64,000 bases of DNA, taken from the NCBI GenBank assembly GCA_030425285.1, contig JAUIAY010000011.1:1-64000 (forward strand). Direction: 5' to 3'. Numbering within the stretch: position 1 is the stretch's first letter; each line of letters starts with the position of its first letter. The notes beneath the pieces are model-generated. The model did no database searches, was not told the origin of the DNA, and was given only the letters and a program-made list of their open reading frames with translations. Made by a program: the position numbers and the translations under genes. Shown here piece by piece: positions 36,078-52,267 of this stretch. The stretch is from Bacteroidia bacterium. Its GTDB lineage: Bacteria; Bacteroidota; Bacteroidia; Flavobacteriales; Flavobacteriaceae.

Positions 36078-37203
36078 ATATGTTAAGATAAGACTTTAGG
36101 ATTTTAGGGTCTGAAAATTGTGCTTTCGCAAACATTTGAGCGTTCTGACTCATTTTCGAGAGTTGTTCAGGGCTGTCTATCAATTCTTGTAATTTTATTA
36201 TCAATTGATTCAAATCGCCTTCAGAGCAATACCCAATATTCTGTTTTTCCATCCAATTGTTGGGATTATGGTGCAATGATAAAACGACTACACCATTTAA
36301 CCAACTTTGTATGTAAGCATTTGGTAAACCATCGGCAAATGGTTTGCTTGTATTAATATAGATTTTCGCTCTTTGGTAATATTGAAAAGAATGTTCAAAA
36401 TCTACTTTGCCAATCATCTTAATAGCATTGGCTCTAGCCAATTCACCAATCGTTTCTTCATAAGTTTTGTCTTTAGAACCACCAGCTATTTCAGCCTTCC
36501 AATCTTTCAAATCACACTTTTGAATAGTTTCAATAAAACACTCTGGCTGTTTAGCTATAGATAAATTGGCAAACCATAGCACAAGGTTTTCTTTGCCAAC
36601 AACTGTTTTAGAAGTATTAAAAAAATAGCTTGGAAGTACCTGACCTGATTTTCTCAAATTATTTTTAGTGGCTTGCCGCTGTTGCTCCGACTGATTAATC
36701 ACTTTATGCGCCATTTTCATACCTTTATTAATGAAACGGTCTTCGTAAGATTTAAGAGGTGTTAATGTCAACTTCTTTAAGAGGTTCTTGTTAGAGCTCC
36801 ATATACGCTTGGTATTTTTATAAAATTCAGCACTATCCTCTCCATTGGTTCCCCAAACATAAGTCACCTTATTGGATTTAGCATAGATACCAGCAACATA
36901 TTGTAACACACTTCGTCCCCTTACATAAATGGCATCAGGTTGTATTGTTTCAAGAATCGTTTTGTAATTGGTCATTGTTTTTTTCCAAGCCAACATCCCT
37001 TTTTTAGACGGAATCCAGTGAAAATTAATACCGTCAACAACTTGCGTAAAAGGTTTGGAACGGTCTTTAGTTTGGGCGACATAGTGCACTTCAATCCCAA
37101 TGGAACTAAATCCGTGGGTTAAATTGTGTAATTGTACCAAAGTCCCATTAATTGGCGCTGTTTTATCAAGAAGATAGGCCTGAGCCAAAATAGCAAGTTT
37201 CAT
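36061..37203 (-). CDS. Glycosyltransferase family 4 (paralogue)
   Basis: 380 residues of GT-B type starting MKLAILAQAYLLDKTAPING. The donor motif DGLPNAYIQSWLNGVVVLSL has Asp and Gln in the EX7E positions, as in its neighbour. LVLWFANLSIAKQPECFIE and MIGKVDFEHSFQYYQRAK align by eye with the neighbour's equivalents. Specificity is unknown. A 22-nt gap separates it from the second sulfotransferase gene. Confidence 0.9.
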   Translation of the reverse strand: MKLAILAQAYLLDKTAPINGTLVQLHNLTHGFSSIGIEVHYVAQTKDRSKPFTQVVDGINFHWIPSKKGMLAWKKTMTNYKTILETIQPDAIYVRGRSVLQYVAGIYAKSNKVTYVWGTNGEDSAEFYKNTKRIWSSNKNLLKKLTLTPLKSYEDRFINKGMKMAHKVINQSEQQRQATKNNLRKSGQVLPSYFFNTSKTVVGKENLVLWFANLSIAKQPECFIETIQKCDLKDWKAEIAGGSKDKTYEETIGELARANAIKMIGKVDFEHSFQYYQRAKIYINTSKPFADGLPNAYIQSWLNGVVVLSLHHNPNNWMEKQNIGYCSEGDLNQLIIKLQELIDSPEQLSKMSQNAQMFAKAQFSDPKILKSYLNIFEGRG

Positions 37204-37225
37204 GTTAAACTTTAATTATTTAGGA

Positions 37226-38299
37226 TTACATCCTTTTCAAAATATACTTATGGAACAACAGTTTGAAGGTTTTAAAAACCCCAATAACTGGTGCGAACGA
37301 CAAAAATATATTTATTATATAATTCAAGGAATGTTTATAGCTATATTTTAGGTTAAGATTTTTTAAATTTATTGTTGTTGACTTTTTATCAGTCGCTTTT
37401 GATAATTCTTCGCCGTAAACATTTTCAATAGTTTCTACAAACTGATCAGACATTAATGACTTGTATTTATTCACATTATTGACCAAGAGCTCATTGGCTC
37501 CTTTTTTAGTACCTGATTGACTTTCCTTGATTCTTAACTTCGATAAATCAAAATTATCATCAATATTCAGAAAGCTAGACACCTTTTTGAAAAAGCTATT
37601 AGAATCTCCTAAAACCTCTTCATAGTTCACCTCTATATAATCAATGTCTTTCTCTTGAAATACGTGTCGCGTTTTTGTAATATTCTTGATACACACACCA
37701 ACTCGTTTCAACAACAACTGATTGTCTTTTTTACTAAAACGTTTCCAGGCCTCATTCAATTGGGTTTTGGAAATAAAGTTATAATGCCTAAATGTGAATT
37801 TATCTTGAGATAATGCAATATCGATAGGATGACGTGTCAATAAAATATACTTAGCTTTCGGGAAGTGCTTTATCAGCAATTTAATGTCATTGATATGTTG
37901 AGGCGATTTATCTCCTAACCATTTTAGGTCTGCATCCGATTTTCCAAAAACTTTAGCATGATGATAAAGTAATCCTGTATAAACCGATTGAAAATCATAA
38001 GCATCAAGACTCTCGAACCATTTGGACTCCTCCAGTTTTGAAATGTCAGCATTTTCAAATCCGCCTTTACGAAGATCCAATGTTGTTAGATTCTCGTGAG
38101 TATTATAAAATCGTTTAAAGTTTTTCCGATTGCCAAGATTACCAAATGCATCAACGTTTTTTAGTACCGATAACAAAGAACCATATTCACGTTCAGGTAT
38201 GCCGATCGCTTTATGTGTATTCAACATTTGCCGTAACATGGTACTTCCAGAACGTGCATTACTGATAATGAAAACTAAATTATTCCTATTAATTGACAT
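37226..38299 (-). CDS. Sulfotransferase family protein (second of two)
   Basis: 357 residues with the PAPS 5' loop FIISNARSGSTMLRQML and the 3'-phosphate motif YILLTRHPIDIALSQDKF, plus an intervening helical segment typical of cytosolic and Golgi-type sulfotransferases. It is not closely similar to the other sulfotransferase of the locus, so the polymer is probably sulfated at two positions or on two sugars. The last 50 residues are hydrophobic (YIINIFLSFAPVIGVFKTF) and may associate with the membrane. Confidence 0.88.
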   Translation of the reverse strand: MSINRNNLVFIISNARSGSTMLRQMLNTHKAIGIPEREYGSLLSVLKNVDAFGNLGNRKNFKRFYNTHENLTTLDLRKGGFENADISKLEESKWFESLDAYDFQSVYTGLLYHHAKVFGKSDADLKWLGDKSPQHINDIKLLIKHFPKAKYILLTRHPIDIALSQDKFTFRHYNFISKTQLNEAWKRFSKKDNQLLLKRVGVCIKNITKTRHVFQEKDIDYIEVNYEEVLGDSNSFFKKVSSFLNIDDNFDLSKLRIKESQSGTKKGANELLVNNVNKYKSLMSDQFVETIENVYGEELSKATDKKSTTINLKNLNLKYSYKHSLNYIINIFLSFAPVIGVFKTFKLLFHKYILKRM

Positions 38300-38313
38300 G
38301 TACTGATTGGTAT

Positions 38314-39267
38314 TTAATTTTGATTTGTTCGCTTTAAAATCTTCAAAATATCCCCTACGAAAGTCTGGCTAAAGACTTTAGAACCTTCAGCGTTTAAATG
38401 TGTTGCATTATGAAACCAGTCGATTTTTGAATTGCCATACCAATTAGTGTAATCCAGAAAATAAACATGATTGTATTTTGATGCAATGACTTCCATATTA
38501 GTCAGAATTTTTTCCTTGCCTTCAATAATGTCATTAGCACTATCATGTTCTGGTGCATAAACTACGCACAGCACTTTCCCAAACTCTTTTGCCATTTCAG
38601 CTTCTTCTTCAATGTAGGTTGTTGCATTATTTATATCCGCTTCGGAAATTGTTTTGGATTCAATAGCAATGTTTCCATCCCATACACTTTCGAAAGCTCT
38701 AAAGCCTTTATATTTGGTATAGTCATCTTCTGAATGCGATACATTAGACATCCATCCTTTTAAGGCATATTTATAATAGCCATGAAATTTATACAATGGA
38801 ACATATCTATCTTTCCAGAGGTTTTCATCCAATGGCTTTAAGTTTGAAAACACAGCTTCATTTTTCAGATAAGGAAAAAACTTATACTTTTTGAAAATTC
38901 CATCATTACGCTTTGAAAATTCCAAAGCACCAATAACATGTACAATACATTCCACATTATCTTGAGACGATATTGCAGGTTCCCACAAAGCACGTTGCAT
39001 GATATAATCGGCTCCTGAAAGTCCGACAACTCTTGTTTTCAGATTAGTAAGGGACTCTATCTCCTTTACGTCAAAATGATTCCACGCTCTGGATGATCCT
39101 AAAACGAGAAGTTTCTCATCTAATTTTTGATCATATAATAGATTTAAATCTTTGTAATCGTCATCATTCAATGTTGAAAGCCCTCTTAAAGCCAGCATAT
39201 CCAACACCAGGAAAACCACAGATAAAACTGTGACAAAAAGAGCGGTATGGATTATAAATCGTTTCAT
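38314..39267 (-). CDS. Membrane-anchored SGNH-like protein paired with MBOAT acyltransferase
   Basis: 317 residues with an N-terminal transmembrane anchor (about 5-28) and a periplasmic domain. LLVLGSSRAWNHFD contains the G-S-S nucleophile region of SGNH/GDSL-like hydrolases, and DWFHNATHLNAEGSKVF contains the Asp-x-x-His and the later His block. Such proteins, like AlgJ/AlgX/DltD, accept an acyl group from an MBOAT partner and place it on the polysaccharide. The MBOAT gene is 3 nt upstream. The assignment rests on motif and pairing. Confidence 0.82.
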   Translation of the reverse strand: MKRFIIHTALFVTVLSVVFLVLDMLALRGLSTLNDDDYKDLNLLYDQKLDEKLLVLGSSRAWNHFDVKEIESLTNLKTRVVGLSGADYIMQRALWEPAISSQDNVECIVHVIGALEFSKRNDGIFKKYKFFPYLKNEAVFSNLKPLDENLWKDRYVPLYKFHGYYKYALKGWMSNVSHSEDDYTKYKGFRAFESVWDGNIAIESKTISEADINNATTYIEEEAEMAKEFGKVLCVVYAPEHDSANDIIEGKEKILTNMEVIASKYNHVYFLDYTNWYGNSKIDWFHNATHLNAEGSKVFSQTFVGDILKILKRTNQN

Positions 39268-39270
39268 CTC

Positions 39271-40701
39271 TTAAAATTGAAAGTAAATGAATGAATTGGC
39301 CTCATTTGGCATAAATAAAATTATAAGCAATACAATAATACCATAAAAAATCTGCCTAACACTTCTTGGCCAAATCATTATAGCTTGCAGCGTATGTACA
39401 CGTTTTCTTCCAAACCATTCCATCATTACCAATCCCAAAATCAGTATGATTAAGATTATAGGATAAAGTATTTCTCCTGAATTAGCACTGCCAATTAATG
39501 TGATATAGTTCAAACTGTCAGCTAATGAATTTGATCTAAAAAAAATCCAAGCCAAGCACGTTAGCACAAAGGTCAATCCTATCTGTAAAAACTCCTTGAG
39601 ATTAGGCAATCTCTTATTGTATGCTACAATTTCGATATGGTTTCTATTATTGCTCGTAAGCAACAAAGGCAAAAAAAACAGAGCATTTAAGAAACCCCAA
39701 ATCACAAAGGTCCAATTCGCACCATGCCAAAACCCACTAACCAAAAAAATGATAAACGTGTTTCTTACCTTCATCCATTTACCACATCTACTACCACCTA
39801 AAGGAATGTAAAGATAATCTCTAAACCAGGTTGATAATGAAATATGCCAACGTCTCCAAAATTCAGCAATATCTCTTGAAAAATAAGGCGTTGCAAAATT
39901 CTGCATCAAATTGAATCCGAAAAGTTTAGCTGTTCCAATAGCGATATCAGAATATCCTGAAAAATCGCCATAAATCTGAAATGCGAACAAAACCGCCCCA
40001 AGGATTAAAGTCGGACTGCTATAATCTTGAGGTGCTTCAAAGATTTGGTTTACATAAACCGCACAATTATCAGCAATGACCATTTTTTTGAATAAGCCCC
40101 AGAGTATTTGACGCATGCCATCTGTAGCCAAATCATAACTGAATTTTCGTTTAACCTTGAATTGCGGCAATAAGTTTGAAGCCCTTTCTATTGGTCCAGC
40201 AACCAATTGCGGGAAGAAGCTAACGTACGCAAAAAACTGAATCCAATTATGTGTGGGTTTCATTTTCTTCCTGTAAACATCAATAGTGTAACTCATGGTC
40301 TGAAACGTATAGAAACTAATCCCTACCGGAAGAATAATCTGCAACGATGAGATTTCCATATGGATACCAATGGAATCAAATGCAGCCTTAAAGTTTTCGA
40401 TAAAAAAATTGTAATACTTAAAATACCCTAAAAAGCCAAGATTTACCAATACGCTGGCCATTAAGAGTAATTTTCGTTTGCGCTTTTCGGTTGCTTTGTC
40501 CAGTAACAATCCAATGTTATAATCGATAAGCGAGCTGAAAACAATAAGACTTAAAAAACGCCAATCCCACCAACCATAAAATACATAGCTTACAACCAAT
40601 AATAAAATATTCTGTAACTTAAGGTTGTTATTGAACACAAACCAGTACAGTACAAATACGGTTGGTAAAAAGATTAAGAATTCAAAGGAATTAAATAACA
40701 T
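39271..40701 (-). CDS. MBOAT family O-acyltransferase (AlgI-like)
   Basis: 476-residue polytopic membrane protein of the AlgI/DltB type. The conserved blocks PVGISFYTFQTMSYTIDVYR, VAGPIERASNLLPQF, FSGYSDIAIGTAKLFGFNL, FWRRWHISLSTWFRDYLY and the catalytic-His segment VSGFWHGANWTFVIWG are all present. It would move acyl groups, usually acetyl, across the membrane for polysaccharide O-acylation by the SGNH-like partner encoded 3 nt downstream. Length and motifs are complete. Confidence 0.95.
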   Translation of the reverse strand: MLFNSFEFLIFLPTVFVLYWFVFNNNLKLQNILLLVVSYVFYGWWDWRFLSLIVFSSLIDYNIGLLLDKATEKRKRKLLLMASVLVNLGFLGYFKYYNFFIENFKAAFDSIGIHMEISSLQIILPVGISFYTFQTMSYTIDVYRKKMKPTHNWIQFFAYVSFFPQLVAGPIERASNLLPQFKVKRKFSYDLATDGMRQILWGLFKKMVIADNCAVYVNQIFEAPQDYSSPTLILGAVLFAFQIYGDFSGYSDIAIGTAKLFGFNLMQNFATPYFSRDIAEFWRRWHISLSTWFRDYLYIPLGGSRCGKWMKVRNTFIIFLVSGFWHGANWTFVIWGFLNALFFLPLLLTSNNRNHIEIVAYNKRLPNLKEFLQIGLTFVLTCLAWIFFRSNSLADSLNYITLIGSANSGEILYPIILIILILGLVMMEWFGRKRVHTLQAIMIWPRSVRQIFYGIIVLLIILFMPNEANSFIYFQF

Positions 40702-40703
40702 AC

Positions 40704-41855
40704 TTATAAAATATCTTTGTACACTTCTAAGGTTTGCTTTGCTATATTATGCCAAGTAAGTTGTTTCACTGAAGCTTTCACCTCGTCGCTTTTCGTTTTA
40801 ATACTCTCACGGCTATTGTAAAGCTCTATAATTTGGTCGGCTATTGCTTTTGGTGTTTCATTGTGCATAATCCAACCCGAATTGCCTTCTTTTATAATAT
40901 CAATAACGCCGTGTTTTTTTCCTACAAAAATTGGTATCCCACAAGCTAAAGCATCTGCAGCTGCATTTCCAAAAGATTCCACATAAGATGTTGATACATA
41001 GACATCACTGCTTCTGTAAGCATTAATAAGTTCTGAATATGGTTGAGGCATGTTAAAATTAGCCTTATTGGGTATTCTTCCAGCTAAAATCACACGTTCT
41101 GAAACATTAAATTTTTCAGCTAGTTGTCCAAGATTTTCTTTTGGGCCAACACAAAGGCATTTGATCTTCTTAAACTCTTTTAAATGCTGTAAGGCTTCAA
41201 ATAAAAGCTCCATACGCTTAATAGGACGATTTCTACCTACAGTAATCAAAACAAAATCATCTGGTGCTAGACCAAGTTTGGATCGTAAATCTTGAAAAGG
41301 TACGGCATTGATTTCATCTACAAAAATCCCATTTGGGATGACTTTTATATGCTCTTCTTTTGCTCCCAATTGCAATAAATCATTCTTGTTGATTTGACTA
41401 ACCGCAATGATTTTATTCGCTTTGGCAATTGAAATATCAAGCTTCTTTTTAGTTTCCTGTTGCAATTGAGCACCATAACCAATAGACTCTACCACTTGCA
41501 CATCAGACCCTCTTGAATGAACTACAACAGGCAAGTTGAATTTTTCGGAGAGTTGTACGGCCTCGTAACCTCCACCATGCAACATTGGCCCATGTAACAC
41601 ATTGATCCTGTTATCTTTAATCATTTTTTTTTGATTCTGTTGTATCAAAAAAGGTGTAAAAACAGAAAAGCTTTTAGCACGATGACAAGGATACGGATAG
41701 CTAAAGTTTTTTGGTATTTCAGGCATCGTACTACAAGCTACCGCAGAAGACACATTTTCTAGTTTGTGCAACTCCTTTGCCAAGTTATGCACAGCGATTT
41801 CCATGCCTCCTAAACGTGGGTAATGATTAGCCGTTATGAAACCAACATTAATCAT
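40704..41855 (-). CDS. Glycosyltransferase family 4
   Basis: 383 residues, GT-B. The acceptor loop GFITANHYPRLGGMEIAVHN and the donor-domain segment LITVGRNRPIKRMELLFEAL are canonical. The EX7E region reads YVESFGNAAADALACGIPIF, with Asp at the last acidic position. It overlaps the deacetylase gene by 8 nt and lies 2 nt before the MBOAT gene. Specificity is unknown. Confidence 0.92.
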   Translation of the reverse strand: MINVGFITANHYPRLGGMEIAVHNLAKELHKLENVSSAVACSTMPEIPKNFSYPYPCHRAKSFSVFTPFLIQQNQKKMIKDNRINVLHGPMLHGGGYEAVQLSEKFNLPVVVHSRGSDVQVVESIGYGAQLQQETKKKLDISIAKANKIIAVSQINKNDLLQLGAKEEHIKVIPNGIFVDEINAVPFQDLRSKLGLAPDDFVLITVGRNRPIKRMELLFEALQHLKEFKKIKCLCVGPKENLGQLAEKFNVSERVILAGRIPNKANFNMPQPYSELINAYRSSDVYVSTSYVESFGNAAADALACGIPIFVGKKHGVIDIIKEGNSGWIMHNETPKAIADQIIELYNSRESIKTKSDEVKASVKQLTWHNIAKQTLEVYKDIL

Positions 41856-42840
41856 CTTGAACTATGTTTTTAATTTCTGAAAGTCCGACAGAATAAGAAC
41901 TCTCTAGAGATGTAAACCACTTGAAATAGGAATCCAATCTTGAGAGCATGGTTTCAATAGCTGATGCTTCCAAGCTATACGGACTAGCCCCTAATTCAAA
42001 TTCATTACTATGGAACATCATACACAAAAACACATCTTTCCCTTGTGCCTTTTTTATCAGGGCTTCGGTAATCGCTTTCATCGTCCCAAAATTGGCATAG
42101 GTTGGCCGTAACCAAATCGGTTTTGAAAAATTTGTAGTATAATTAAAAAGAATATGTTGGTAAGATTTCTGAAGTTTAATCTTCCGCTTTAACCCTAGCG
42201 GAACGTTTAGAAGTTTCTTGTTGTATATGGTTACTGGAACCTGTAAGACATTCATATCCCCTTTTTTCCGATAGTCGGTTTTGGAGGGAAAATACGGTTG
42301 ATAAGGCGCTCCAAAATAATTCACATGTGTTTTGGCTTTACTATGACTGTGGCTGTTGTCAGGGGTCACTGAACTATCTACCCAATAGCCTAAATTTTCC
42401 AAAAAACTCAAAGAATGTTCACCAATTCCGAAGCGACCAGCTCTAAATGATCTTGGTTGATACCCAAAAGTTGTTGTAAAAAGTTGTGTCAGATTCCGTA
42501 ACTTTTCGCACTCTATTTCTGGCTTGTAATTACATTGGAATGCCTTGGTATTGTCGGTGTCAAAATCGGCTTCGGGTTCTATGAACTCAGCATGTAAATG
42601 TGTTCCTAATTCGACACGATCTCCAAAACTCTTGAGTATTTGCACCGACTTTGTATCTGAAATGACTTCAGGACTCAATAAATAGGTTGGTCTAATTTGA
42701 TAAGTATCGAAAAGCGGTTGTAGCTTATTGACCAATCCATTATACATATTTTCGAATTGCAATGGTTGCTTGACCTTCCATTTTGCACCTTTATCACATT
42801 CGGTATCAATTGTAACTGCAAGATGTAACTTTGATGTCAT
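41848..42840 (-). CDS. Polysaccharide deacetylase-like (NodB-fold) protein
   Basis: 330 residues without signal peptide, so cytoplasmic. The NodB-homology features are the opening LHLAVTIDTECDKG (catalytic Asp-Thr), VELGTHLHAEFIEP with the H-x-H pair in the place of the zinc-binding H-x3-5-H, and SFRAGRFGIGEHSLSFLENL as motif 3. It may deacetylate an N-acetylated sugar on a lipid-linked or nucleotide form, which could expose an amine for the sulfotransferases or acyltransferases of the locus. That link is inference. Confidence 0.82.
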   Translation of the reverse strand: MTSKLHLAVTIDTECDKGAKWKVKQPLQFENMYNGLVNKLQPLFDTYQIRPTYLLSPEVISDTKSVQILKSFGDRVELGTHLHAEFIEPEADFDTDNTKAFQCNYKPEIECEKLRNLTQLFTTTFGYQPRSFRAGRFGIGEHSLSFLENLGYWVDSSVTPDNSHSHSKAKTHVNYFGAPYQPYFPSKTDYRKKGDMNVLQVPVTIYNKKLLNVPLGLKRKIKLQKSYQHILFNYTTNFSKPIWLRPTYANFGTMKAITEALIKKAQGKDVFLCMMFHSNEFELGASPYSLEASAIETMLSRLDSYFKWFTSLESSYSVGLSEIKNIVQDD

Positions 42841-42843
42841 TTC

Positions 42844-43836
42844 CTATTCATTTTTATCGATTCGCATATAATGCATTCGGTGATTGATTTCTTCTGGAAC
42901 TTTAAAACTTAAATCAATAATATGAATCATTGCACTTGATGTTGACTCTGATATTTTATAGCCATTAGCCACAAATACTGGAGTTAATTCTCCAAAATTA
43001 TTATGAGTACAATTGATCTTATATAATGAAGAATCGCTAACCACCAATTTTGTAGCATATTTCAACATCTTGTCTGCATATTCGTTAGAATTTTCTGCAC
43101 AAATCAAATCAACAATAAACAATTTATCTTTTTCATATTTAATTACCATGACCCCTTTGATAGACTTGTTACTATCGAAAGCGCCATATATATAATAATC
43201 GCCTGTGGTTTCAGCCAACCTCCACGACATATATTCTTGTGATTTACAAAAAAAAATCTTTGGTTTTGTATTCTCTTTTTTCAGAAAAAAGCAATATTCA
43301 TTTATTGTTATTTTTTCAACATTAAGGTTTTGGGGCAATTTAAGATTTGTAATTTTTTTGATAAAAAAATTATATACTCCAGTCAATTTGTGATTATACT
43401 TTATTTTCTTCACAGCCTTATAGGCATAAAAAAAATCGTCAAATCCAAGTTTAATAAATGCCTTTCGAGATTTGCTATTACCAGTCCCATAATAAAAAGC
43501 AATGTTTGATTGTATGCAAAAAACACTGATGTGTTTAAGTAATTTTTCAAACAGACCTAATCGCCTGTAATCTTTATGGGTAGCGCCATCAGCTAGTAAA
43601 GCCGTTCTATACACTTTGCCATTTATTACCATCTCATTTATTATAATTTGCAATGTAGAAATGCAAATGGTATTATCAAAAATACAGAACGTATATTCCT
43701 CTATATTTTCGGATTGCTCAATGTTGTGCTTCCAATGGTAATATTCATAACCCTTATTGAAACTTGTCTGCAGTAAGTCTAAAACACTTTGAATTTCAGT
43801 TTCAGAGCTCTTATCAAGCAGTTTTACGTTATACAT
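42844..43836 (-). CDS. GNAT-family N-acetyltransferase-like protein
   Basis: 330 residues. The N-terminal half is a GNAT fold with the acetyl-CoA-binding segment ALLADGATHKDYRRLGLFEKL (R-x-x-G-x-x-like) and FYYGTGNSKSRKAFIKLGF. The C-terminal half is a second divergent domain that may be another GNAT lobe. It probably acylates an amino sugar. Neighbours lie 3 nt away on both sides. The segment is especially rich in A/T-ending codons compared with the GT genes beside it. Confidence 0.8.
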   Translation of the reverse strand: MYNVKLLDKSSETEIQSVLDLLQTSFNKGYEYYHWKHNIEQSENIEEYTFCIFDNTICISTLQIIINEMVINGKVYRTALLADGATHKDYRRLGLFEKLLKHISVFCIQSNIAFYYGTGNSKSRKAFIKLGFDDFFYAYKAVKKIKYNHKLTGVYNFFIKKITNLKLPQNLNVEKITINEYCFFLKKENTKPKIFFCKSQEYMSWRLAETTGDYYIYGAFDSNKSIKGVMVIKYEKDKLFIVDLICAENSNEYADKMLKYATKLVVSDSSLYKINCTHNNFGELTPVFVANGYKISESTSSAMIHIIDLSFKVPEEINHRMHYMRIDKNE

Positions 43837-43839
43837 GGT

Positions 43840-45279
43840 CTATGATTTTATTTTTTTCAATTTTATTTTTTCTAACAGACTAAAAAACAACTCTTTTTTA
43901 ACGGTTCTAAACAACACTATAAAAACTATAGTACCTACAACCATTTGTATAATAAGACCTAAATAAACGTTAATTGGTAGAATATTTATACAATAGACAG
44001 GAACAAAAATTATTATAGTCATCATCATGGCTTCTTTAATAGCCTTATATGCAGCATGTTTTTGTTCTAAAATGATATTGTAATGGTAAGCTGTATAGAC
44101 CCATCCGAAAAGTGCCCCAACCAAATAACCTATTATAAGTCCATAAATTCCATAAGGCTCCATAAGAAAACACATTAAAGGCAACGATGCTATCACCTCT
44201 ACAATTACAGATACAAATATAACTTTTGATTCTCCTTTAGCTATGATTGCACTGCGTAGAATATGAGCCAACCCTCTTAACAAACCTACAACTGCCAATA
44301 GCATAAGGTATTTCCCTGCTTCTTGCCACTTCTCTCCATAAAACGCTGGAATGAGGTTCTGGCTAATAGCTATTAACATAGCCATAAAAGGCAAAAATAA
44401 AAGCGATGTGAGATGTAAGGCTTTGGTTGAATTCAACCTGAATTTTTCTTTGTCATATTGTATTTTTGACATTCCGGGTGTTAACACATTGGTTAATACG
44501 GATTGTATTTTTGTTGCTGGCACTATGGCTAAATTGAAAGCTATGTTGAACAGCCCCATTATTTCTTTGCCTAAATATCTACCTGTGAGTAGTCCAATCA
44601 TATTTTCAGCAAAAAAATATACCATATGAGCACCTAGCATATTCATACCAAATTTAAAAAAGGGCTTTATTCCTGAAAACTGTGGTTTGGACGGTAGCCA
44701 TTTCCCATAATAAAAAGAAAGTAATCCAAAAATAGAACGCTGTAAAATTAAACGCCAAACCAATGACCAGACTCCAAAACCTGTATACGCCATCATAATA
44801 GCAATAATATTTGCTGACAACATAGACCCTATTTCTGCCAATGAAAAACCTTTAAAGTCCATGCGCTTTCGCATTAAAATATTTGGAAACTGAAATGTTT
44901 GAAGCAAAATAACAAAAGCTAAAGTTTTAATAAGCGGAACAAGTTCTGGTTCTTCAAAAAAAGAAGCTGCCAACCCAGCACCAAAAAAAACTACGGCAGT
45001 AAGTACTGTATTTAATGCAAATTGGATATAAAAAATGGCTGAAATCTGCGCTTTAGTAATTTCCTGACTTTGAATGATTGCAGAACCAAAGCCAATACTG
45101 GTAATGGCTTTAACAAAACGATTTACAATGAGAGCCATGGCCACCAGGCCAAAATCAGCTTTTGTTAAAAGTCGTGCTAAAATTATAGTAAATATAATTT
45201 GAAGGACTTGTTGTATAACATCTGAGCTGCCTCTCCATGCTAAACCACTAAAAACTTGCTTTTTTAAAGTTTTTTGCAA
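43840..45279 (-). CDS. Polysaccharide flippase (Wzx-like, MATE/MOP superfamily), probable TTG start
   Basis: Polytopic membrane protein with about 12-14 helices. SGLAWRGSSDVIQQVLQIIF and TIILARLLTKADFGLVAMA are the standard N-terminal signatures of polysaccharide transport proteins. The longest frame starts at TTG 45363, but that TTG is the -33 box of a consensus promoter, and the -7 box lies at 45332-45339. No ATG precedes the conserved domain. TTG at 45279 (479 residues, start MQKTLKKQVF) follows the inferred transcription start by about 45 nt and is preferred. It is the first gene of the main operon and flips the lipid-linked repeat unit. Confidence 0.9.
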   Translation of the reverse strand: MQKTLKKQVFSGLAWRGSSDVIQQVLQIIFTIILARLLTKADFGLVAMALIVNRFVKAITSIGFGSAIIQSQEITKAQISAIFYIQFALNTVLTAVVFFGAGLAASFFEEPELVPLIKTLAFVILLQTFQFPNILMRKRMDFKGFSLAEIGSMLSANIIAIMMAYTGFGVWSLVWRLILQRSIFGLLSFYYGKWLPSKPQFSGIKPFFKFGMNMLGAHMVYFFAENMIGLLTGRYLGKEIMGLFNIAFNLAIVPATKIQSVLTNVLTPGMSKIQYDKEKFRLNSTKALHLTSLLFLPFMAMLIAISQNLIPAFYGEKWQEAGKYLMLLAVVGLLRGLAHILRSAIIAKGESKVIFVSVIVEVIASLPLMCFLMEPYGIYGLIIGYLVGALFGWVYTAYHYNIILEQKHAAYKAIKEAMMMTIIIFVPVYCINILPINVYLGLIIQMVVGTIVFIVLFRTVKKELFFSLLEKIKLKKIKS

Positions 45280-45331
45280 AGTTATTTGGTAGATTTTTTT
45301 TTGAAAATTTAACTTTCTTGATAAACTTGAA

Positions 45332-45363
45332 CAAAGATATCTTAAAATCAAAACCAATAACAA
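45332..45363 (-). promoter_or_regulatory. Promoter of the main polysaccharide operon
   Basis: On the minus strand TTG (45361-45363), 21 bp, TAtcTTTG (45332-45339). It lies inside the longest open frame of the flippase and so helps set its real start. It would drive about 21 kb of tightly packed genes to 24078. Confidence 0.65.
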
Positions 45364-45502: not shown

Positions 45503-48500
45503 ATGAAAAAAAAATACTTATTGTTGTTGACTTTAGGCTTGTTTTTGACTTCTTTTGCCCAAAGTCCCATAGTAACAATTGATAGAGAGAACATTACAGG
45601 ACCAACAGCCACTGGGAACGCTGCTTCTATTTCTTCTGTTGGTTTAACAAGAGGAAATGGTGTTATTCAAAGAAATGGGAATGACTTTTCTGCGCGTGAC
45701 TGGATGGGAACTTCTCAAGCGACTGCCGAAAGCAATGAAGACTATTTAGAATGGTCTGTAACGGCCAATGTTAATTATGATATTGAAATTACTGAAATTG
45801 ATGTCAGATTACGAAGAAACCTTGATGGCCCAACTAATTGGCAATTATTTTATAGTACAGATAATTTTACCACTGCTGGTATTTCGGTTAATACAGCGGA
45901 GACATTGGCTGCCAACAGTAATGTCATTTTTAACTTGAATGGGTTAAGTATTAACTCGGGAACTTCTGGTACTATTACTTTTAGATTATATGCATGGAAT
46001 GCAGCAACAGCTAGCGGGTGGCTTCGTGTGAGACGATTAGCTGCATGGTCTGATTTTGGGATAGCATTGCCTGGAATTAGACTTACGGGAAATATTACAA
46101 CTTCCTCAAGTAATAGTAGTGAGTCAAACATAGTAAGCTCTATAGTCTTCGACCCTTCAGACAACATTAATTACCAAATGTATAGTGCAACATCTGGATT
46201 GACTACCGGTAATTCCTTAAAAATAGGTGAATTCACTATCCAAGATGGTGGTGATGATTTGACTGATAGTGACGCTCTTAGTACAATTCTCAATGATATT
46301 TCATTTTCAGTTTTAGGAGATCCTAATATAGCAGCCCTTGCTATTTTTGATGGTACAACAAATATTTCCGAAGTAACTTCAGTTACACCAACAACCCTTT
46401 TCTCTGCAATCAATGGAGGAAGTGGTTTAGTAGCTTCTGATGGTGCATCTAAAACATTTGATGTTTATGCTACTTTCAATACAAACGTTACAGATAATCA
46501 ACAAATTCAACTTACAGTCAATTCTGCCATACCAGATGCTTCAGGTTCTACTTTTGATGCTTTTGATGCTGGTGCAGCTAGCACTTCTGTAGCTGGAGAT
46601 GATAACAGACTGGAAGTTACTGCTACAGCAATTACCTTTGCCCAAGAACCATCTGATGTCAACAGATTTGAAACCATGACACCTTACCCAACTATTAATG
46701 CAATAGATAGCAACAGTAATTTGGATTTAGATTTCAATGATTCAGTTTCAATTTTATCTAACGGACCATTAGATCCGCCATCCAGCAATTACAATTTTAT
46801 TAATGGCGAAGCTGTTTTGGATAATATCATGTTTTCTGATGAAGGCACTGACTTTTACCTATTAGCTATTACATCTGGATTTTTAATAGATGCTAGTGCC
46901 GTTTTTGATGTTGTAGGCCCAATTGTTACTATAGCCGTTCAAGATTTTGATTCTTCTTCTCCTGAATGGACATATACCAACGATATTTTATTCTTTGATA
47001 ATGGCTGGGGAACAGACGGATATTATGGCATTATAGATAGTTCAGTAGCTGCTCCTTTAGATTATACTTTTTTTGAGAACAATATATTGGGTGAAAATGA
47101 TTTAAATGATGAAGGTGACAACGGAACAACTGGCTGGGCTACTATTCAATTTGACGATGTGGATATTAGCGGTGTTTCTAATGTACAAGTACGATTTGAT
47201 TGGCAAGTTATAGGCTATGTCAATAACAATGATAATGCTCAATACCAATTATTTTATGATGGTGTAGGACAAGGCCAAGTTTTCCTATTCGATGGTGATA
47301 ATGGTTCTAGCATTAATGATGGGTCGGGTTCAATAGTATTAGATATTCCTGATGTTGTAAACACGGTTAGTTTAGCTATACGCGTTCGTAATAATGGCCC
47401 TGCTGGCTTTTCAGGTTTTGACAACTTTAAAGTTATAAGTGTTTTTGATGGGCTTATTTATACTGACAATGCTTGGACGCCAAATCCTCCTTCTGGCTCT
47501 ACTGGTTCTGAAAACGCTTTAATTAAAGATGGTAATTATATTGTAGGCGAAAATATAGCCTTAAACAACTTGTTCATTGAAAACGATGCTACAGTGACTG
47601 TTGCCCAAGGGCAATCTATCCAGATTAATGGTGATTTGCACAATGCAGGTGTTCTTGAACTTAATTCAGTATCCACAAGTTACTCAAGTCTAATTATTGA
47701 AGGCAAGTCTAACGGAGAGGTTGTTTATAATAGACATGTTAATACTAATGCTGAAACAGGGGGAAATGATTTAGTTTCAGCTCCAGTAACTGGTCAGACA
47801 TTTGGTGATTTTGCGTTAAACAATCCCAATTTATTTTCCAATCCATCGAATCCAACCGAAAAACTATTTGGACCTTTTGACAAAGCTACTGACACTTATT
47901 TAACTTATGATACCGCTATTCCTGCTGAAGCTAGTGTTGTCTTAAGTCCAGCAGTTGGCTATAGAGCTGCTTCATCAGATGGTGGCACACTTGCTTTTAC
48001 TGGAGAAGTTAATACTGAAGATGTAGATATAGCTATAGTTTATACTGGACCAACAAACACGGAATGGAATCTAATTGGAAACCCTTACCCATCGTACATA
48101 TCGTTATCTGACTTTTTAAGTGTTAACAATTCAGTAATGGATCCTGTAAGTTCTGGAGTTTACGGATATGATGGTGATGCGTCAGATGGATGGACTATTT
48201 GGAACCAAGCATATTCTGATGCCAACCCTGGAGCCGTTATTACTCCTGGCCAAGGATTTCTTGTTGCTTCTGTAGCTGATGGCGGAACTGTTTCTTTCTC
48301 AACTAGCATGAGAAGAACAGGAACAACTGATGATTTTATTAGTGGTAGAACCTCAAATAATTCTTTGATTGAGCATCTAAAGCTTGAATTATCAAGTTTA
48401 AATGACTCTTATAATACAGATTTCTATTTTACTGATAATGCCACATTAGGTCTTGATCCTGGATATGACGCCAGCATCTATTCAGGTGTTGCTCCATCGT

Positions 48501-49057
48501 TCTCCATTTATTCACATTTAATTGAAGATAATCAAGATAGAGATTACGCTATCCAATCTTTGGACTACAACGCAATTTCTGATGTTACTATTCCGTTGGG
48601 AATCCACGCTAATCAAAATCAAGAAATTACAGTATCAATTGTCGAATCAACCTTACCTGAAGATATAGATGTTTATCTTGATGATATCGTTGGCAATACT
48701 TCAACACTATTAAACAATGACCCTTTCATCATTACTCCTGATAGTGATTTAAGTCAAACAGGACGTTTCTTTTTAAGATTTTCTGGTTCAGCTCTTTCTA
48801 CTGAAGAGCACATAGCTAATAACAACGTTCAAGTTTTTGCAACGATTACTCCTAAAAGTCTATTTGTTAAAGGTAATTTAGACAGTTTAACAACTGTTAA
48901 AATACATGACTTGCAAGGGCGTTTGGTGTTAGAAACAAATTTAGATTCAACTAGCACTAATAATCAAGTTGACCTTTCTAATATAGTTTCAGGAGTTTAT
49001 ACGGTTTCCTTAACTAACAAAACTCTCTCTAAAACTCAAAAAGTAATCATTAAATAA
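45503..49057 (+). CDS. Large secreted surface protein with T9SS type A sorting domain
   Basis: 1184 residues. The signal peptide is MKKKYLLLLTLGLFLTSFAQ. The body is beta-rich and Asp/Asn/Ser/Gly-rich. Residues of about 25-200 resemble choice-of-anchor-like sandwiches (SVTANVNYDIEITEIDVRLR), and a further jellyroll-like segment lies near 490-650 (FDWQVIGYVNNNDNAQYQLF). A region with NLIGNPYPSYISLSDFL is common in flavobacterial cargo proteins. The last 80 residues (TVKIHDLQGRLVLE, DLSNIVSGVYTVSL, KVIIK end) form the type IX secretion C-terminal domain. No catalytic motif is recognised. It is likely a surface-anchored adhesin or structural protein, divergent from the polysaccharide operon. Confidence 0.88.
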   Translation: MKKKYLLLLTLGLFLTSFAQSPIVTIDRENITGPTATGNAASISSVGLTRGNGVIQRNGNDFSARDWMGTSQATAESNEDYLEWSVTANVNYDIEITEIDVRLRRNLDGPTNWQLFYSTDNFTTAGISVNTAETLAANSNVIFNLNGLSINSGTSGTITFRLYAWNAATASGWLRVRRLAAWSDFGIALPGIRLTGNITTSSSNSSESNIVSSIVFDPSDNINYQMYSATSGLTTGNSLKIGEFTIQDGGDDLTDSDALSTILNDISFSVLGDPNIAALAIFDGTTNISEVTSVTPTTLFSAINGGSGLVASDGASKTFDVYATFNTNVTDNQQIQLTVNSAIPDASGSTFDAFDAGAASTSVAGDDNRLEVTATAITFAQEPSDVNRFETMTPYPTINAIDSNSNLDLDFNDSVSILSNGPLDPPSSNYNFINGEAVLDNIMFSDEGTDFYLLAITSGFLIDASAVFDVVGPIVTIAVQDFDSSSPEWTYTNDILFFDNGWGTDGYYGIIDSSVAAPLDYTFFENNILGENDLNDEGDNGTTGWATIQFDDVDISGVSNVQVRFDWQVIGYVNNNDNAQYQLFYDGVGQGQVFLFDGDNGSSINDGSGSIVLDIPDVVNTVSLAIRVRNNGPAGFSGFDNFKVISVFDGLIYTDNAWTPNPPSGSTGSENALIKDGNYIVGENIALNNLFIENDATVTVAQGQSIQINGDLHNAGVLELNSVSTSYSSLIIEGKSNGEVVYNRHVNTNAETGGNDLVSAPVTGQTFGDFALNNPNLFSNPSNPTEKLFGPFDKATDTYLTYDTAIPAEASVVLSPAVGYRAASSDGGTLAFTGEVNTEDVDIAIVYTGPTNTEWNLIGNPYPSYISLSDFLSVNNSVMDPVSSGVYGYDGDASDGWTIWNQAYSDANPGAVITPGQGFLVASVADGGTVSFSTSMRRTGTTDDFISGRTSNNSLIEHLKLELSSLNDSYNTDFYFTDNATLGLDPGYDASIYSGVAPSFSIYSHLIEDNQDRDYAIQSLDYNAISDVTIPLGIHANQNQEITVSIVESTLPEDIDVYLDDIVGNTSTLLNNDPFIITPDSDLSQTGRFFLRFSGSALSTEEHIANNNVQVFATITPKSLFVKGNLDSLTTVKIHDLQGRLVLETNLDSTSTNNQVDLSNIVSGVYTVSLTNKTLSKTQKVIIK

Positions 49058-49063
49058 TTACAT

Positions 49064-49129
49064 ATCAACACATTAGCTTATCAAATTGAATATCATAAAA
49101 TAAACTAATGTGTTGATTATTTAATTTTT
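49064..49129 (+). terminator. Hairpin terminator after the T9SS protein gene
   Basis: ATCAACACATTAG (49064-49076) and its perfect complement (49105-49117) with a 28-nt loop, followed by TATTTAATTTTTA. It separates the big surface protein from the peptide cassette. Confidence 0.55.
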
Positions 49130-49172
49130 AGCTATTAAGCTCATATTATTTACTTATTTTTAAAATGATTTA

Positions 49173-49180
49173 TATATTTG
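49173..49180 (+). promoter_or_regulatory. Promoter -7 element of the peptide cassette
   Basis: TAtaTTTG ends only 4 nt before the first ATG (49185) and 16 nt before a second in-frame ATG (49197). Either the mRNA is leaderless, or translation starts at the second Met. No clear -33 TTG is seen. Confidence 0.5.
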
Positions 49181-49184
49181 CAAT

Positions 49185-49376
49185 ATGAATAAAAAAATGT
49201 CCGAAAACCAAATAACACGTAAGGAAGCGTTAAAAAAAATGGGGAAATACGCAGCAATAACTGCGGTGGGTACATTTTTAATTTTAAGCCCTAAAAAAGC
49301 CCATGCCACTTCTCCACCTGATCCAGGCGGAGGCTTTGGAAGAGAAAGTAATCCAGAAGAATTATTTGAAGGATAA
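49185..49376 (+). CDS. Small exported peptide / candidate RiPP-like precursor
   Basis: 63 residues (59 if the second Met is used). A basic N-region with TRKEALKKMGKYA is followed by a hydrophobic stretch (AAITAVGTFLILS) and an A-H-A site typical of signal peptidase I. Cleavage there would release a 22-residue tail, TSPPDPGGGFGRESNPEELF plus EG, rich in Pro, Gly and acidic residues, with Thr42, Ser43 and Ser55 as its only hydroxyl residues. There is no twin-arginine motif and no cysteine. It is directly followed by an HPr-kinase-like and a nucleotidyltransferase gene, whose relatives act in peptide-modification loci, so it may be their substrate. That role is inference; the reading frame and signal are seen. 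Confidence 0.65.
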   Translation: MNKKMSENQITRKEALKKMGKYAAITAVGTFLILSPKKAHATSPPDPGGGFGRESNPEELFEG

Positions 49377-50499
49377 TTTGACTCTTTTAGCTCCAAATTT
49401 AGTACGCAAGATAAATGGAGTTTACATTTTGTGGTTTAAAAATTCCAATAATTATATTTTATTGGATGATATTAATTATTCATTATTAACACTCTGTATT
49501 TCAAGTTTAAATGAATTAGATTTTTTTAATTCAATATCAAGATCTGACTTGAAAATTCATGAAATACCTAAAAGTGTTTATAGAGAATTGCGTCAACTAC
49601 TTTTAGACTGCAACACTCCCACTAATCAAATAGAATCAAAGACAAAAGATGTTAGATTTTTTCAGTACACTGAAAGTGCTATCTATAAAATAAATGAAAA
49701 GACTTTTCGGATTAATTTTTATGACAACTACGTAAAACAATTAATTCACCCTCAATTTAAACATTTACAATTAGACTCCCCTTTTTTAATAGAAGACTTT
49801 ACTTTTCATATTTCGTTGGATAGTGAACAATTATATTTGTTTACTAATAAAAAGTTTAGCGGTACGTTTAAAAAATCCAGTTATCATTTACTTCAAGGTA
49901 AGTTTGCTATAGAGTTACTTTGTGCACTTACCAACACTCATGAAAATGATTGGCTAGGGACTTTTCATGCCTCAACGGTTTCTAATAATAAAGAAGCTAT
50001 CATGCTGGTTGGGGAATCTGGTAAAGGTAAGAGCACTTTATCTGCGCTTCTAATGGCTAATGGTTTTAATTTGGTTGCAGATGATTTTACACCAGTTCAC
50101 GCAAAATCCAAATGTGTTTATAGTTACCCTTCAGCTATTTCCATAAAGGAAGGTGCTTTTAAAGTTATAAAATCCCATTTTAAGGATTTTGATATGATCA
50201 ATACTTCAAAGAAAAGCACTTCAAAGGGAGGTATAAAGTACATAGCTCCGACCAATATGGCAAAAAGGTCTCTTCCTTGCAACAAAATTGTATTGGTGAA
50301 TTATAAAAAAAATGCATCAACTGTTCTAGAAGAAGCGACTATTGAATCAGTCTTAAAAATACTAATACCAGATTCTTGGCTATCACCAATACCAGAAAAT
50401 GCAGAATATTTTTTAAATTGGTTAGAAGAAATTACTTTTTATAGACTAACTTATTCAAATACTTCTGAAGTAGTTGAAGCTTTTAACAAGTTGTTTTAA
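49366..50499 (+). CDS. HPr-kinase-like protein with PqqD-like N-terminal region
   Basis: The C-terminal half resembles HPr kinase/phosphorylase: WLGTFHASTV, P-loop VGESGKGKSTLSALL (Gly at residue 216), FNLVADDFTPV (Walker B-like), and YSYPSAISIKEGAF. The N-terminal 90 residues (LVRKINGVYILWF, YILLDDINYSLLTL) loosely recall PqqD-type peptide-binding domains, with low certainty. The only ATG upstream (49303) lies inside the peptide gene in another frame and would overlap it by 74 nt. TTG 49366 (377 residues) or TTG 49378 is more likely. HPr-kinase relatives phosphorylate lasso-peptide precursors such as paeninodin and also occur in exopolysaccharide loci. A neighbouring small peptide and nucleotidyltransferase gene support such a role. 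Confidence 0.8.
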   Translation: MKDNLTLLAPNLVRKINGVYILWFKNSNNYILLDDINYSLLTLCISSLNELDFFNSISRSDLKIHEIPKSVYRELRQLLLDCNTPTNQIESKTKDVRFFQYTESAIYKINEKTFRINFYDNYVKQLIHPQFKHLQLDSPFLIEDFTFHISLDSEQLYLFTNKKFSGTFKKSSYHLLQGKFAIELLCALTNTHENDWLGTFHASTVSNNKEAIMLVGESGKGKSTLSALLMANGFNLVADDFTPVHAKSKCVYSYPSAISIKEGAFKVIKSHFKDFDMINTSKKSTSKGGIKYIAPTNMAKRSLPCNKIVLVNYKKNASTVLEEATIESVLKILIPDSWLSPIPENAEYFLNWLEEITFYRLTYSNTSEVVEAFNKLF

Positions 50500-50546
50500 A
50501 ATTCATTGAGTTTTTAAAACTCTATAGCTATAACAAAAATATCTCA

Positions 50547-51578
50547 ATGACATCATTGCATCAAACATATTCAACACTTGCAAACATTTTAAGTGACAAA
50601 AACAACATTGATGAACTCCTTAATGATATTAAAAAAGATCAAATTGATTGGGTTAACCTTGTAAAAGTATCCAGCGAACATCTTGTTTTAACTACGGTAT
50701 TTTGTAAGCTAGAAGAAAAAGAACTTCTGCAATTAATTCCAAAAGATTTAAAAGATTATTTGCAAGAGCTTACGGCTATCAATAGGAATAGGAATCAAGA
50801 TTTGCTAAATGAAATTAAAAACATCGCTTTATTATTTAACGAGAAAAACATTGATTATGTCTTCTTAAAGGGTGCTGCGCTACTAACTCTAGGTTACTAC
50901 AATGATTTAGGTGAAAGAATGGTGGGTGACATTGATGTTCTAATAGAAGAGAGCCAAATACCTATCGCCAAAATTGCTTTAGAACACAATGGTTATAAAA
51001 GTGTCAAGCCACGATTAAGTGACAAATATTTAGAAAAGAGGCACATCCCTAGGTTAGTCAATAAAGAAAAGCTTGCAGCTGTAGAAATCCACAGCCAACT
51101 TCTCAAAAAAAAACACGCTACCAAATTAAAACCATCAACAGTATTAACTAACAGTCAAAATGTTGGCGGTATTTTGTTTCCAAACGATATAGATTTATTA
51201 AAGCATGCTATTTTGGGCTTTCAGATTAATGATTTGGGTAATTATTTCAACTCTATTCATTTTAAACATATATATGACAGTCTCATCCTCATCAATAGAA
51301 ACGGAATATCAGCCTTAGCCATAAGTTCAATAAACAAAAAACATTTTATTTATGGTTCAATTTACTTTGATGATTTTAGCATGACAAAGAGCAATTTAAA
51401 AGATAAAGTATGCAAGAATTTGTTCCGTTTCAGAATGAAGCATCAATTAATCAATAAAATCTGGAATTACTTTTTAAGAAAAATTTGGTATTTAATGACA
51501 ATAGTTAATAGAACACAACTGTTTATTATGAACAGTGATTATAGAAAAGACGTTTTACTATTACTCAAAAAAGTATAG
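50547..51578 (+). CDS. Nucleotidyltransferase family protein (NTP_transf_5-like)
   Basis: 343 residues. IDYVFLKGAALLTLGYYND followed by RMVGDIDVLIEESQI gives the KGAALL...DIDVLI pattern, with the D-x-D metal-binding pair of an uncharacterised nucleotidyltransferase family. VEIHSQLLKK supplies a further conserved block (E-x-H). These proteins recur beside HPr-kinase-like and PqqD-like genes in lasso-peptide and exopolysaccharide loci. They may nucleotidylate a phosphorylated substrate, but this is not established for this protein. It starts 47 nt after the kinase gene in the same direction. Confidence 0.85.
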   Translation: MTSLHQTYSTLANILSDKNNIDELLNDIKKDQIDWVNLVKVSSEHLVLTTVFCKLEEKELLQLIPKDLKDYLQELTAINRNRNQDLLNEIKNIALLFNEKNIDYVFLKGAALLTLGYYNDLGERMVGDIDVLIEESQIPIAKIALEHNGYKSVKPRLSDKYLEKRHIPRLVNKEKLAAVEIHSQLLKKKHATKLKPSTVLTNSQNVGGILFPNDIDLLKHAILGFQINDLGNYFNSIHFKHIYDSLILINRNGISALAISSINKKHFIYGSIYFDDFSMTKSNLKDKVCKNLFRFRMKHQLINKIWNYFLRKIWYLMTIVNRTQLFIMNSDYRKDVLLLLKKV

Positions 51579-51688
51579 CCCTAATAAAAAAAAGACCTAT
51601 CAAATATTCTTTTTTAAGTCTTATTTATTCAAAATTTAATTTGTTAATGTTTTAATTAATCTTATTTTTACTCCTAAATTCATCATTT

Positions 51689-52267
51689 ATGAATAGATAT
51701 ATTTTTATTGGATTATTTTTTATATCCTCATTAGTCTCTTCCCAAAATTTCGATTTGGACACTGATGTGCCCTGGACCATTGGTGTAGGTGTTAATATTG
51801 TTGATAATGACGGATTTCGGTTTGACAAGCCTTTCGATACCGATAATTGGAATTTTAAAAATCCTTTATCAATAAATGTTGAAAGAAAATGGCGAGATTA
51901 TTTTTCAACAAATCTTGCAATCACTCTAAACAAACTGACAAAGGACAATAAGCAAAACAATGGTTATTTAACTGAATCAAGTAATTTGTTTGCTATTGAT
52001 TTAACAGGACGTTTTATTTTTGACCAATTTATTTGGGAACAAAACCCAAGAATAGATCCTTTTGAGGGCTATGTCCTTGCTGGTTTTGGATATACTTCTG
52101 TTTTAGACACAGACAGCATTATGTTTGATGTTGGTTTAGGTTTTAATTTTTGGTTGTATGAGGATATAGGTATCCGATTGCAAACTATGGGTAAATTTGG
52201 ATTTAATGATTATCAATACCTAAAAAATTACATTCAACATACAGCAGAATTTATTTTTAGATTTTAA
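51689..52267 (+). CDS. Outer-membrane beta-barrel protein
   Basis: 192 residues with a signal peptide (MNRYIFIGLFFISSLVSSQ) and repeated amphipathic strands (PWTIGVGVNIVDND, GYVLAGFGYTSVL, IMFDVGLGFNFWLYED), ending in HTAEFIFRF. A terminal Phe is the usual barrel-assembly signal. It is probably an eight-stranded outer-membrane barrel. It lies 110 nt after the nucleotidyltransferase gene; membership in the peptide cassette is possible but unproven. A strong terminator follows. Confidence 0.8.
   Translation: MNRYIFIGLFFISSLVSSQNFDLDTDVPWTIGVGVNIVDNDGFRFDKPFDTDNWNFKNPLSINVERKWRDYFSTNLAITLNKLTKDNKQNNGYLTESSNLFAIDLTGRFIFDQFIWEQNPRIDPFEGYVLAGFGYTSVLDTDSIMFDVGLGFNFWLYEDIGIRLQTMGKFGFNDYQYLKNYIQHTAEFIFRF

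Follow-up and report, generated by a model that had tools for sequence, protein, structure and literature searches.

A conserved peptide gene paired with type IX secretion cargo and an HprK-type kinase suggests a leader-guided phosphopeptide pathway in Flavobacteriaceae

We analyzed a 64,000-nucleotide (nt) stretch of a Flavobacteriaceae genome (Bacteroidia bacterium, GenBank assembly GCA_030425285.1, contig JAUIAY010000011.1, positions 1 to 64,000 of the forward strand; hereafter the window), which carries a small peptide gene followed by genes for putative modification enzymes. A sequence-only reading of this locus had claimed three genes, namely a 63-residue peptide gene, a kinase gene with the motifs GESGKGKST and LVADDF, and a DIDVLI-type nucleotidyltransferase gene, and all three are present. 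They are flanked by a gene for a cargo protein of the type IX secretion system (T9SS) and a gene for an outer-membrane protein, and all five genes share one strand. The features are as follows:

45503-49057, plus strand: T9SS cargo protein of 1184 amino acids with a C-terminal sorting domain (PF18962, 1e-8; TIGR04183, 2.2e-9), the genetic partner of the peptide
49064-49117, plus strand: terminator-like hairpin in the gap between the T9SS gene and the peptide gene (-17.4 kcal/mol, z -5.2)
49173-49180, plus strand: TATATTTG, a candidate Bacteroidota -7 box (such a box lies at most 120 nt upstream in 13 of 29 peptides)
49185-49376, plus strand: predicted precursor peptide of 63 amino acids, with the leader/export signal ITRKEALKKMGKYAAITAVGTFLILSPKKAHA followed by TSPPDPGGGF...
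49311-49313, plus strand: codon of Ser43, the predicted phosphorylation site
49366-50499, plus strand: kinase of HprK type, 377 amino acids, with a probable TTG start that overlaps the end of the peptide gene (TIGR04352, 2.1e-22, below cutoff)
49366-49641, plus strand: predicted N-terminal domain of the kinase, residues 1-92, a PqqD-like RRE (recognition element for ribosomally synthesized and post-translationally modified peptides, RiPPs), from hhalign to PqqD and structure matches
50547-51578, plus strand: PF14907 (NTP_transf_5) nucleotidyltransferase-like enzyme (2.6e-33), with GDIDVLI and a DxD at D128/D130
51689-52267, plus strand: outer-membrane beta-barrel protein, a frequent neighbour (PF13505 below cutoff; cluster c3)

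The longest open reading frame (ORF) of the kinase in the window spans 398 amino acids from ATG 49303 and overlaps the peptide gene by 88 nt, a situation confined to this genome. Of 26 kinase-side loci tested, the 25 others all have an in-frame stop that restricts the overlap to at most 7 nt, which led us to reject a kinase N-terminus reading through the peptide frame; because of these stops, and because many kinase homologues start with LKxxL.P, TTG 49366 is probably the kinase start. The 88-nt overlap would also suit the notion that the small ORF is no genuine gene or is just a segment of the kinase, to which we give next to no credence, given that the peptide differs from the copy in the same genus with a dN of 0.027 and a dS of 0.579 (dN/dS about 0.05), is conserved across genera, and is set apart from the kinase frame by stops elsewhere. 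The other two frames of the peptide region each hold 5-6 stops. The peptide is thus a real gene family, selected as a protein.

The peptide may start at ATG 49185 or at ATG 49197. The TAnnTTTG box, which we take to represent the Bacteroidota -7 consensus, lies 12 nt ahead of 49185; in relatives the box precedes the start by 25-31 nt in 10 copies, and five copies, counting the window's, have it at -12. Among 29 kinase-side peptides, 10 begin within 43 nt of the upstream gene and none of these has TAnnTTTG in the preceding 120 nt, whereas 13 of the 19 lying farther from the upstream gene do. The sequence-only reading had placed both a terminator and a -7 box here; the hairpin is strong, while the TAnnTTTG motif alone is weak promoter evidence, with 124 occurrences in the window against 106 expected.

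The window's peptide has no family in Pfam or NCBIfam. A kinase search of same-family genomes recovered the kinase in 36 of 397, and in 27 of these 36 genomes a matching peptide adjoins it, 26 found by motif scan plus G004, where the peptide lies past the nucleotidyltransferase gene. The sequence-only reading had made its case depend on a conserved small ORF upstream of homologous kinases; because such an ORF does accompany the kinases, that test leaves its proposal of a peptide-modification system standing, and the proposal is now supported computationally. A profile built from the 27 kinase-side peptides, G004 included, found the peptide in 39 of 395 same-family genomes, and 34 genomes carry both kinase and peptide. 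The kinase genomes without a profile match are G048, with its kinase at a contig edge, and G395, where the motif scan had found the peptide. At the genus level, kinase and peptide each occur in 25 of 237 genera, with 24 common to both by intersection of the two lists (Fisher 1.3e-30, uncorrected for phylogeny; given the kinship among genera, the value should not be read as a strict probability).

In nine kinase genomes no peptide was recognised at the kinase, and the profile found one in eight of them: five genomes (G123, G320, G067, G149 and G371) have it on other contigs or elsewhere, in G055 it occurs at two contig edges, in G324 it lies at a distance of 3 kb, and in G151 an interrupted copy adjoins the kinase. 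This recovery, together with the near-absence of the peptide from genomes lacking the kinase, constitutes the independent evidence for co-occurrence. Five genomes have a peptide and no kinase match. Three of these (G283, G295 and G315; 89-92% complete) contain degenerate copies: that of G283 (L113) has no usual start and its conserved Ser is replaced by Tyr, that of G295 (L118) has two internal stops, and that of G315 (L114) has a frameshift. The other two, G136 and G275, are weighed below. When 395 genomes were drawn from the phylum, the kinase was found in five and the peptide in the same five, four of them already known and one new (G692); the phylum draws yielded nothing outside the window's own family, which is weak evidence of absence as the make-up of the draw is not given. 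G385, a genome of the same genus, lacks both kinase and peptide, and none of the five cassette proteins had a match in 18 kb beside its aconitase gene; no insertion boundary was drawn there because the other flank is absent as well.

The strongest conservation within the peptide concerns a single residue. The seventh residue after the proline of an LxP motif, Ser43 in the window, is Ser in 48 of 49 peptides, the sole exception being the start-less copy L113 of G283, a genome without a detected kinase. These 49 comprise 30 kinase-side peptides and 19 others, including the incomplete or broken but readable copies L108, L110, L111 and L114 and the exception L113; the broken copies of G151, G197 (second copy) and G295 and the six peptide places of G692 were left out. 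Ser43 directly follows a signal-peptidase-like site: a strict A-x-A ends two residues ahead of the Ser in 34 of 49 peptides, and the others have variants such as SQA, AQT and AQE. A Pro/Gly-rich core follows the Ser, often S-P-x-x-P-G-x-G-F/W or S-P-P-D-P-G-G, and this short core is common to many genera, with a variable tail beyond it. Where the sequence-only reading had put phosphorylation in the C-terminal tail, the predicted site is instead this one conserved Ser.

Ahead of the site lies a conserved leader stretch, ITRKEA..KMGKYAA.., in which K, N or T comes after the conserved Arg in the copies examined. A canonical twin-arginine (Tat) substrate was rejected, since there is no RR and NCBIfam and Pfam gave only scattered weak matches to peptide copies, one of them to a formate-dehydrogenase-region Tat model at 0.035. 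Export may proceed by Sec or by an atypical Tat route; the window's genome has genes for TatC and a signal peptidase I.

The kinase shows the HprK-type pattern, with the Walker A motif, H201, D239 and D240 invariant in all 25 kinases of the alignment; we take the Walker A motif, the upstream His and the DD pair to have their HprK-type roles here. It falls outside HprK-related kinase A (TIGR04352), scoring 79.6 bits against a curated cutoff of 200. Single-sequence Pfam scans of 25 kinases displayed the kinase domain, and PqqD was not among the 25 families listed. A profile of kinase residues 8-92, when compared with 26 Bacteroidota PqqD domains, aligned over 59 columns with an hhalign probability of 77% and an E-value of 2e-5. 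As negative controls, the middle and the catalytic portions of these kinases reached 0.3% and 0.2%. AlphaFold modelled the 92-residue domain (pLDDT, its predicted confidence, 72) as a bbb-aaa winged fold. Foldseek ranks 1-8 with this domain comprised TbiB1, a second lasso B1 protein and a sactipeptide synthase (E 0.25-1.0), and VIA-align gave Z values of 6.8 for the second lasso B1 protein (6jx3), 6.4 for TbiB1, 6.1 for the sactipeptide synthase and 5.2 for MccB, with winged DNA-binding domains ranking after the RREs from 4.3 downward. The sactipeptide synthase and MccB matches are presumably to their RREs. Each of these lines is moderate; together they make a convincing case, from profile similarity and modelling, that the kinase carries an N-terminal PqqD-like RRE. 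The full-length kinase model, at a pLDDT of 54, was too poor and was therefore not used for structure search.

A search of plasmids by tblastn returned 19 distant matches, mostly alphaproteobacterial, of which four were examined. One of them, on Methylobacterium tardum plasmid pMt-1 (L135), combines in one chain a PqqD domain above the Pfam cutoff and an HprK domain below cutoff; a divergent nucleotidyltransferase gene lies alongside this fusion. An anti-phage defence role was considered and rejected, PADLOC having given weak P-loop matches for the kinase only and none for the peptide or the nucleotidyltransferase.

The gene upstream of the peptide is recurrent as well. PF18962 scored 35.8 bits against a cutoff of 27 on the window's cargo gene, indicating a T9SS type A sorting domain; this model was run on the window's cargo alone, and other partners were assigned by a purpose-built hidden Markov model (HMM) and by sequence. 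Homologues of this cargo (cluster c2) are present in 28 of 36 kinase loci, and a c2 gene is the nearest same-strand upstream gene, within 420 nt, for 26 of 29 kinase-side peptides, or directly upstream in 27 of 30 with G004 included; their C-termini are similar. The exceptions are G338, G197 and the second tandem copy in G013. For a less biased test, an HMM of the C-termini of kinase-side partners was scanned on loci around peptides found elsewhere, each gene being counted once and the G151 copy, which lies beside a kinase, being excluded. A sorting domain was found in 12 of 18 genes upstream of these away-from-kinase peptides compared with 3 of 121 other genes. The upstream gene lacks the domain at L101, L108, L112, L114, L117 and L118, of which the last three are broken copies; another three copies lie at contig edges and have no upstream gene. 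Because the window's genome also encodes a close cargo paralogue (54% identity, contig C7) for which the genome search gave no peptide, the pairing is a rule for the peptide and not for the cargo. As a separate observation, G320 and G692 each have six peptide places and one kinase match, and all six places in G320 follow a T9SS-type gene.

These distributions bear on the idea of a secreted product, a linear bacteriocin or a signalling peptide, whose T9SS neighbour is merely incidental, as the RiPP-like enzymes, the variable tail after the core and a putative zinc peptidase (PF06167, M90) recurring on the opposite strand in 10 of 36 loci might suggest. We judge this improbable: T9SS-type genes precede peptides away from the kinase far more often than other genes are so equipped, the short core is common to many genera, and the recurrent neighbour clusters examined included no transporter or immunity family, although not every neighbour was scanned.

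We regard a leader-guided linear phosphopeptide pathway as the best explanation of this locus, and as a probable one. The modification chemistry and the function of the peptide we infer by analogy. The RRE would bind the conserved leader, and the kinase would place one or more phosphates on Ser43, to which the PF14907 enzyme might then attach a sugar or a nucleotide. The leader may double as an export signal, with a housekeeping signal peptidase cutting near the A-x-A, and export and cleavage would perhaps be gated by the phosphate. The released short Pro/Gly-rich phosphoglycopeptide could then act at the cell surface with the T9SS protein encoded upstream.

The PF14907 enzyme adjoins the kinase in 30 of 36 loci, and its DxD (D128, D130) is invariant in 30 of 30 nucleotidyltransferases. 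Extracts of PMC8498205 describe lasso kinases that phosphorylate Ser and a pseudomycoidin nucleotidyltransferase that adds hexoses to the phosphate, and Ser phosphorylation followed by hexose addition is proposed here because of this analogy. The same pathway might instead have the enzyme transfer a nucleotide to the phosphate or to Ser, a possible though unlikely variant: Pfam labels the family an uncharacterised nucleotidyltransferase and the DxD is retained throughout, but hexoses are what is added in the one characterised case in that source. In G324 and G055 (L056, L062) we also observed a kinase followed by a different nucleotidyltransferase gene (cluster c29; PF00483 in L056), with a similar 64-amino-acid ORF (MGYxHxNSKGKTY...) upstream on the kinase strand.

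Beyond the T9SS gene, on the minus strand at 29210-45363, the window contains a polysaccharide cluster, in which 10 genes were scanned and which includes four glycosyltransferases as well as the following:

37226-38299, minus strand: sulfotransferase
39271-40701, minus strand: MBOAT acyltransferase
43840-45363, minus strand: flippase

Across the family, at least 14 of the 36 kinase loci have polysaccharide marker clusters (epimerase, UDP-sugar dehydrogenase, NusG-like and flippase, one member of each confirmed by Pfam) within 7 kb. A small exported or membrane peptide that stays unmodified could assist T9SS cargo while the kinase and the nucleotidyltransferase act elsewhere, for instance on a surface-polysaccharide precursor; these clusters and the pairing of the peptide with T9SS genes even away from the kinase would both fit this. 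We think such a division of labour rather unlikely, because the predicted RRE implies a peptide client and because the near-invariant Ser and the genome-wide co-occurrence of peptide and kinase speak against it. Of the other neighbours, the outer-membrane barrel (cluster c3) occurs in 16 of 36 kinase loci, once on the opposite strand, and its membership of the cassette is uncertain. Genes for ftsZ and/or ftsA lie within about 8 kb in 11 of 36 kinase loci, apparently the ancestral neighbourhood; these and the PF06167 peptidase are taken as neighbourhood and not as cassette, though the peptidase may still have a role in the pathway.

Several observations weigh against the phosphopeptide pathway. 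The peptide profile was trained on kinase-side copies, so that re-finding those is not independent. G136 (84% complete) keeps an intact peptide, and G275 (82% complete) has one intact peptide and one without a usual start, and neither genome has a kinase match. In G151 (L059) a stop precedes the Ser in a peptide beside an intact kinase, and in G040 (L055) the peptide is intact and the adjoining kinase frame is split. A Bacteroidales metagenome-assembled genome (L034, UBA12170) has the kinase and a homologous nucleotidyltransferase gene and no peptide profile match in the genome; its kinase may have a different substrate. For the RRE, the hhalign probability stops at the 77% given above, Foldseek E-values begin at 0.25 with none at or below 0.001, and the best VIA Z is only 6.8. 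The leader carries RK instead of RR and has no YxxP, the RRE motif of leaders of lasso peptides and of linear polyphosphorylated peptides (LPP). Finally, extracts of a study of LPP (PMC13381572) report that, in heterologous expression, deletion of the nucleotidyltransferase left the detectable products unchanged.

Among the systems we found, the closest is LPP, described by Popov et al. 2026; extracts of that paper confine it to Bacillota. According to the same extracts (PMC13381572), LppK phosphorylates S3 of the core, in an AQSNWK stretch beside a cleavage site of the signal peptidase I (SpI) type; LPP and paeninodin clusters are reported near capsule loci; and the kinases of both are characterised while the biological role of the peptides is given as unknown. 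The locus studied here shares with LPP an RRE, an HprK-like kinase, an NTP transferase, a linear peptide and proximity to polysaccharide loci, and just as the LPP phospho-Ser stands immediately past the SpI-type site (AQS), the conserved Ser here stands past a signal-peptidase-like site. However, the RRE is fused to the kinase as its N-terminal domain and does not form a discrete protein, the YxxPxVLxHQxIxFETxxS leader is absent from the consensus of 27 peptides, which have a signal-type leader, and the peptide is paired with T9SS genes. No LPP-type SpI-like peptidase or MsbA-like transporter was present among the five genes scanned at 45503-52267, nor in the recurrent neighbour clusters of the 36 loci, where PF06167 was the sole peptidase and not every neighbour was scanned. 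The system would work like LPP and the paeninodin kinases but is no member of LPP, three tested LPP features being absent.

Paeninodin-type and pseudomycoidin lasso clusters likewise combine a Ser-targeting HprK-type kinase with a hexose-adding nucleotidyltransferase, according to extracts of PMC8498205. A lasso cluster was nevertheless rejected, as the sequence-only reading had done, because no B2 protease or macrolactam cyclase was found among the cassette genes scanned; the candidate Ser, moreover, is not C-terminal. The HPr-rel-A system (TIGR04352 plus a PqqD chaperone; Sphingomonas plasmid L136) also has a PqqD-like unit, an HprK-related kinase and a PF14907 enzyme, but there these are separate neighbours, whereas the window's PqqD unit is fused to a kinase that scores below the cutoff. 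Relative to these known systems, the pairing of the peptide with T9SS cargo genes is the new element; together with the RRE domain of the kinase and the adjacent polysaccharide locus, it goes beyond the sequence-only reading. In the open-licence PMC literature, with subscription papers and preprints outside this scope, we recognised no description of this Flavobacteriaceae family or of a T9SS link.

T9SS cargo is anchored, according to extracts of PMC7468200 and PMC13086638, by an amide bond between the cargo C-terminus and a sugar bearing a seryl or glycyl group; in that case the amino acid presumably comes from the Wbp/Vim pathway and not from a ribosomal peptide. By analogy, the peptide might be a ribosomally made anchor whose N-terminal amine, freed once the leader is removed, would serve the T9SS sortase PorU as the nucleophile joining the cargo C-terminus, which we hold to be very improbable; the further step in which a phosphoglycosylated Ser would link the surface protein to the neighbouring polysaccharide is just as doubtful. 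If true, a gene-encoded, leader-programmed linker would here take the place of the seryl-sugar one in Porphyromonas gingivalis.

Collectively, the analysis adds a substrate family not yet catalogued, a small pathway featuring a predicted RRE-kinase fusion, and a prediction that comes down to a single residue, Ser43. A substrate gene repeatedly tied to T9SS cargo would connect the modification to a defined surface pathway, and gene deletion in culturable Flavobacteriaceae could then be used to test what the modification does. The pairing of this gene with that of a large surface protein may point to a hitherto undescribed means of building or labelling the cell surface.

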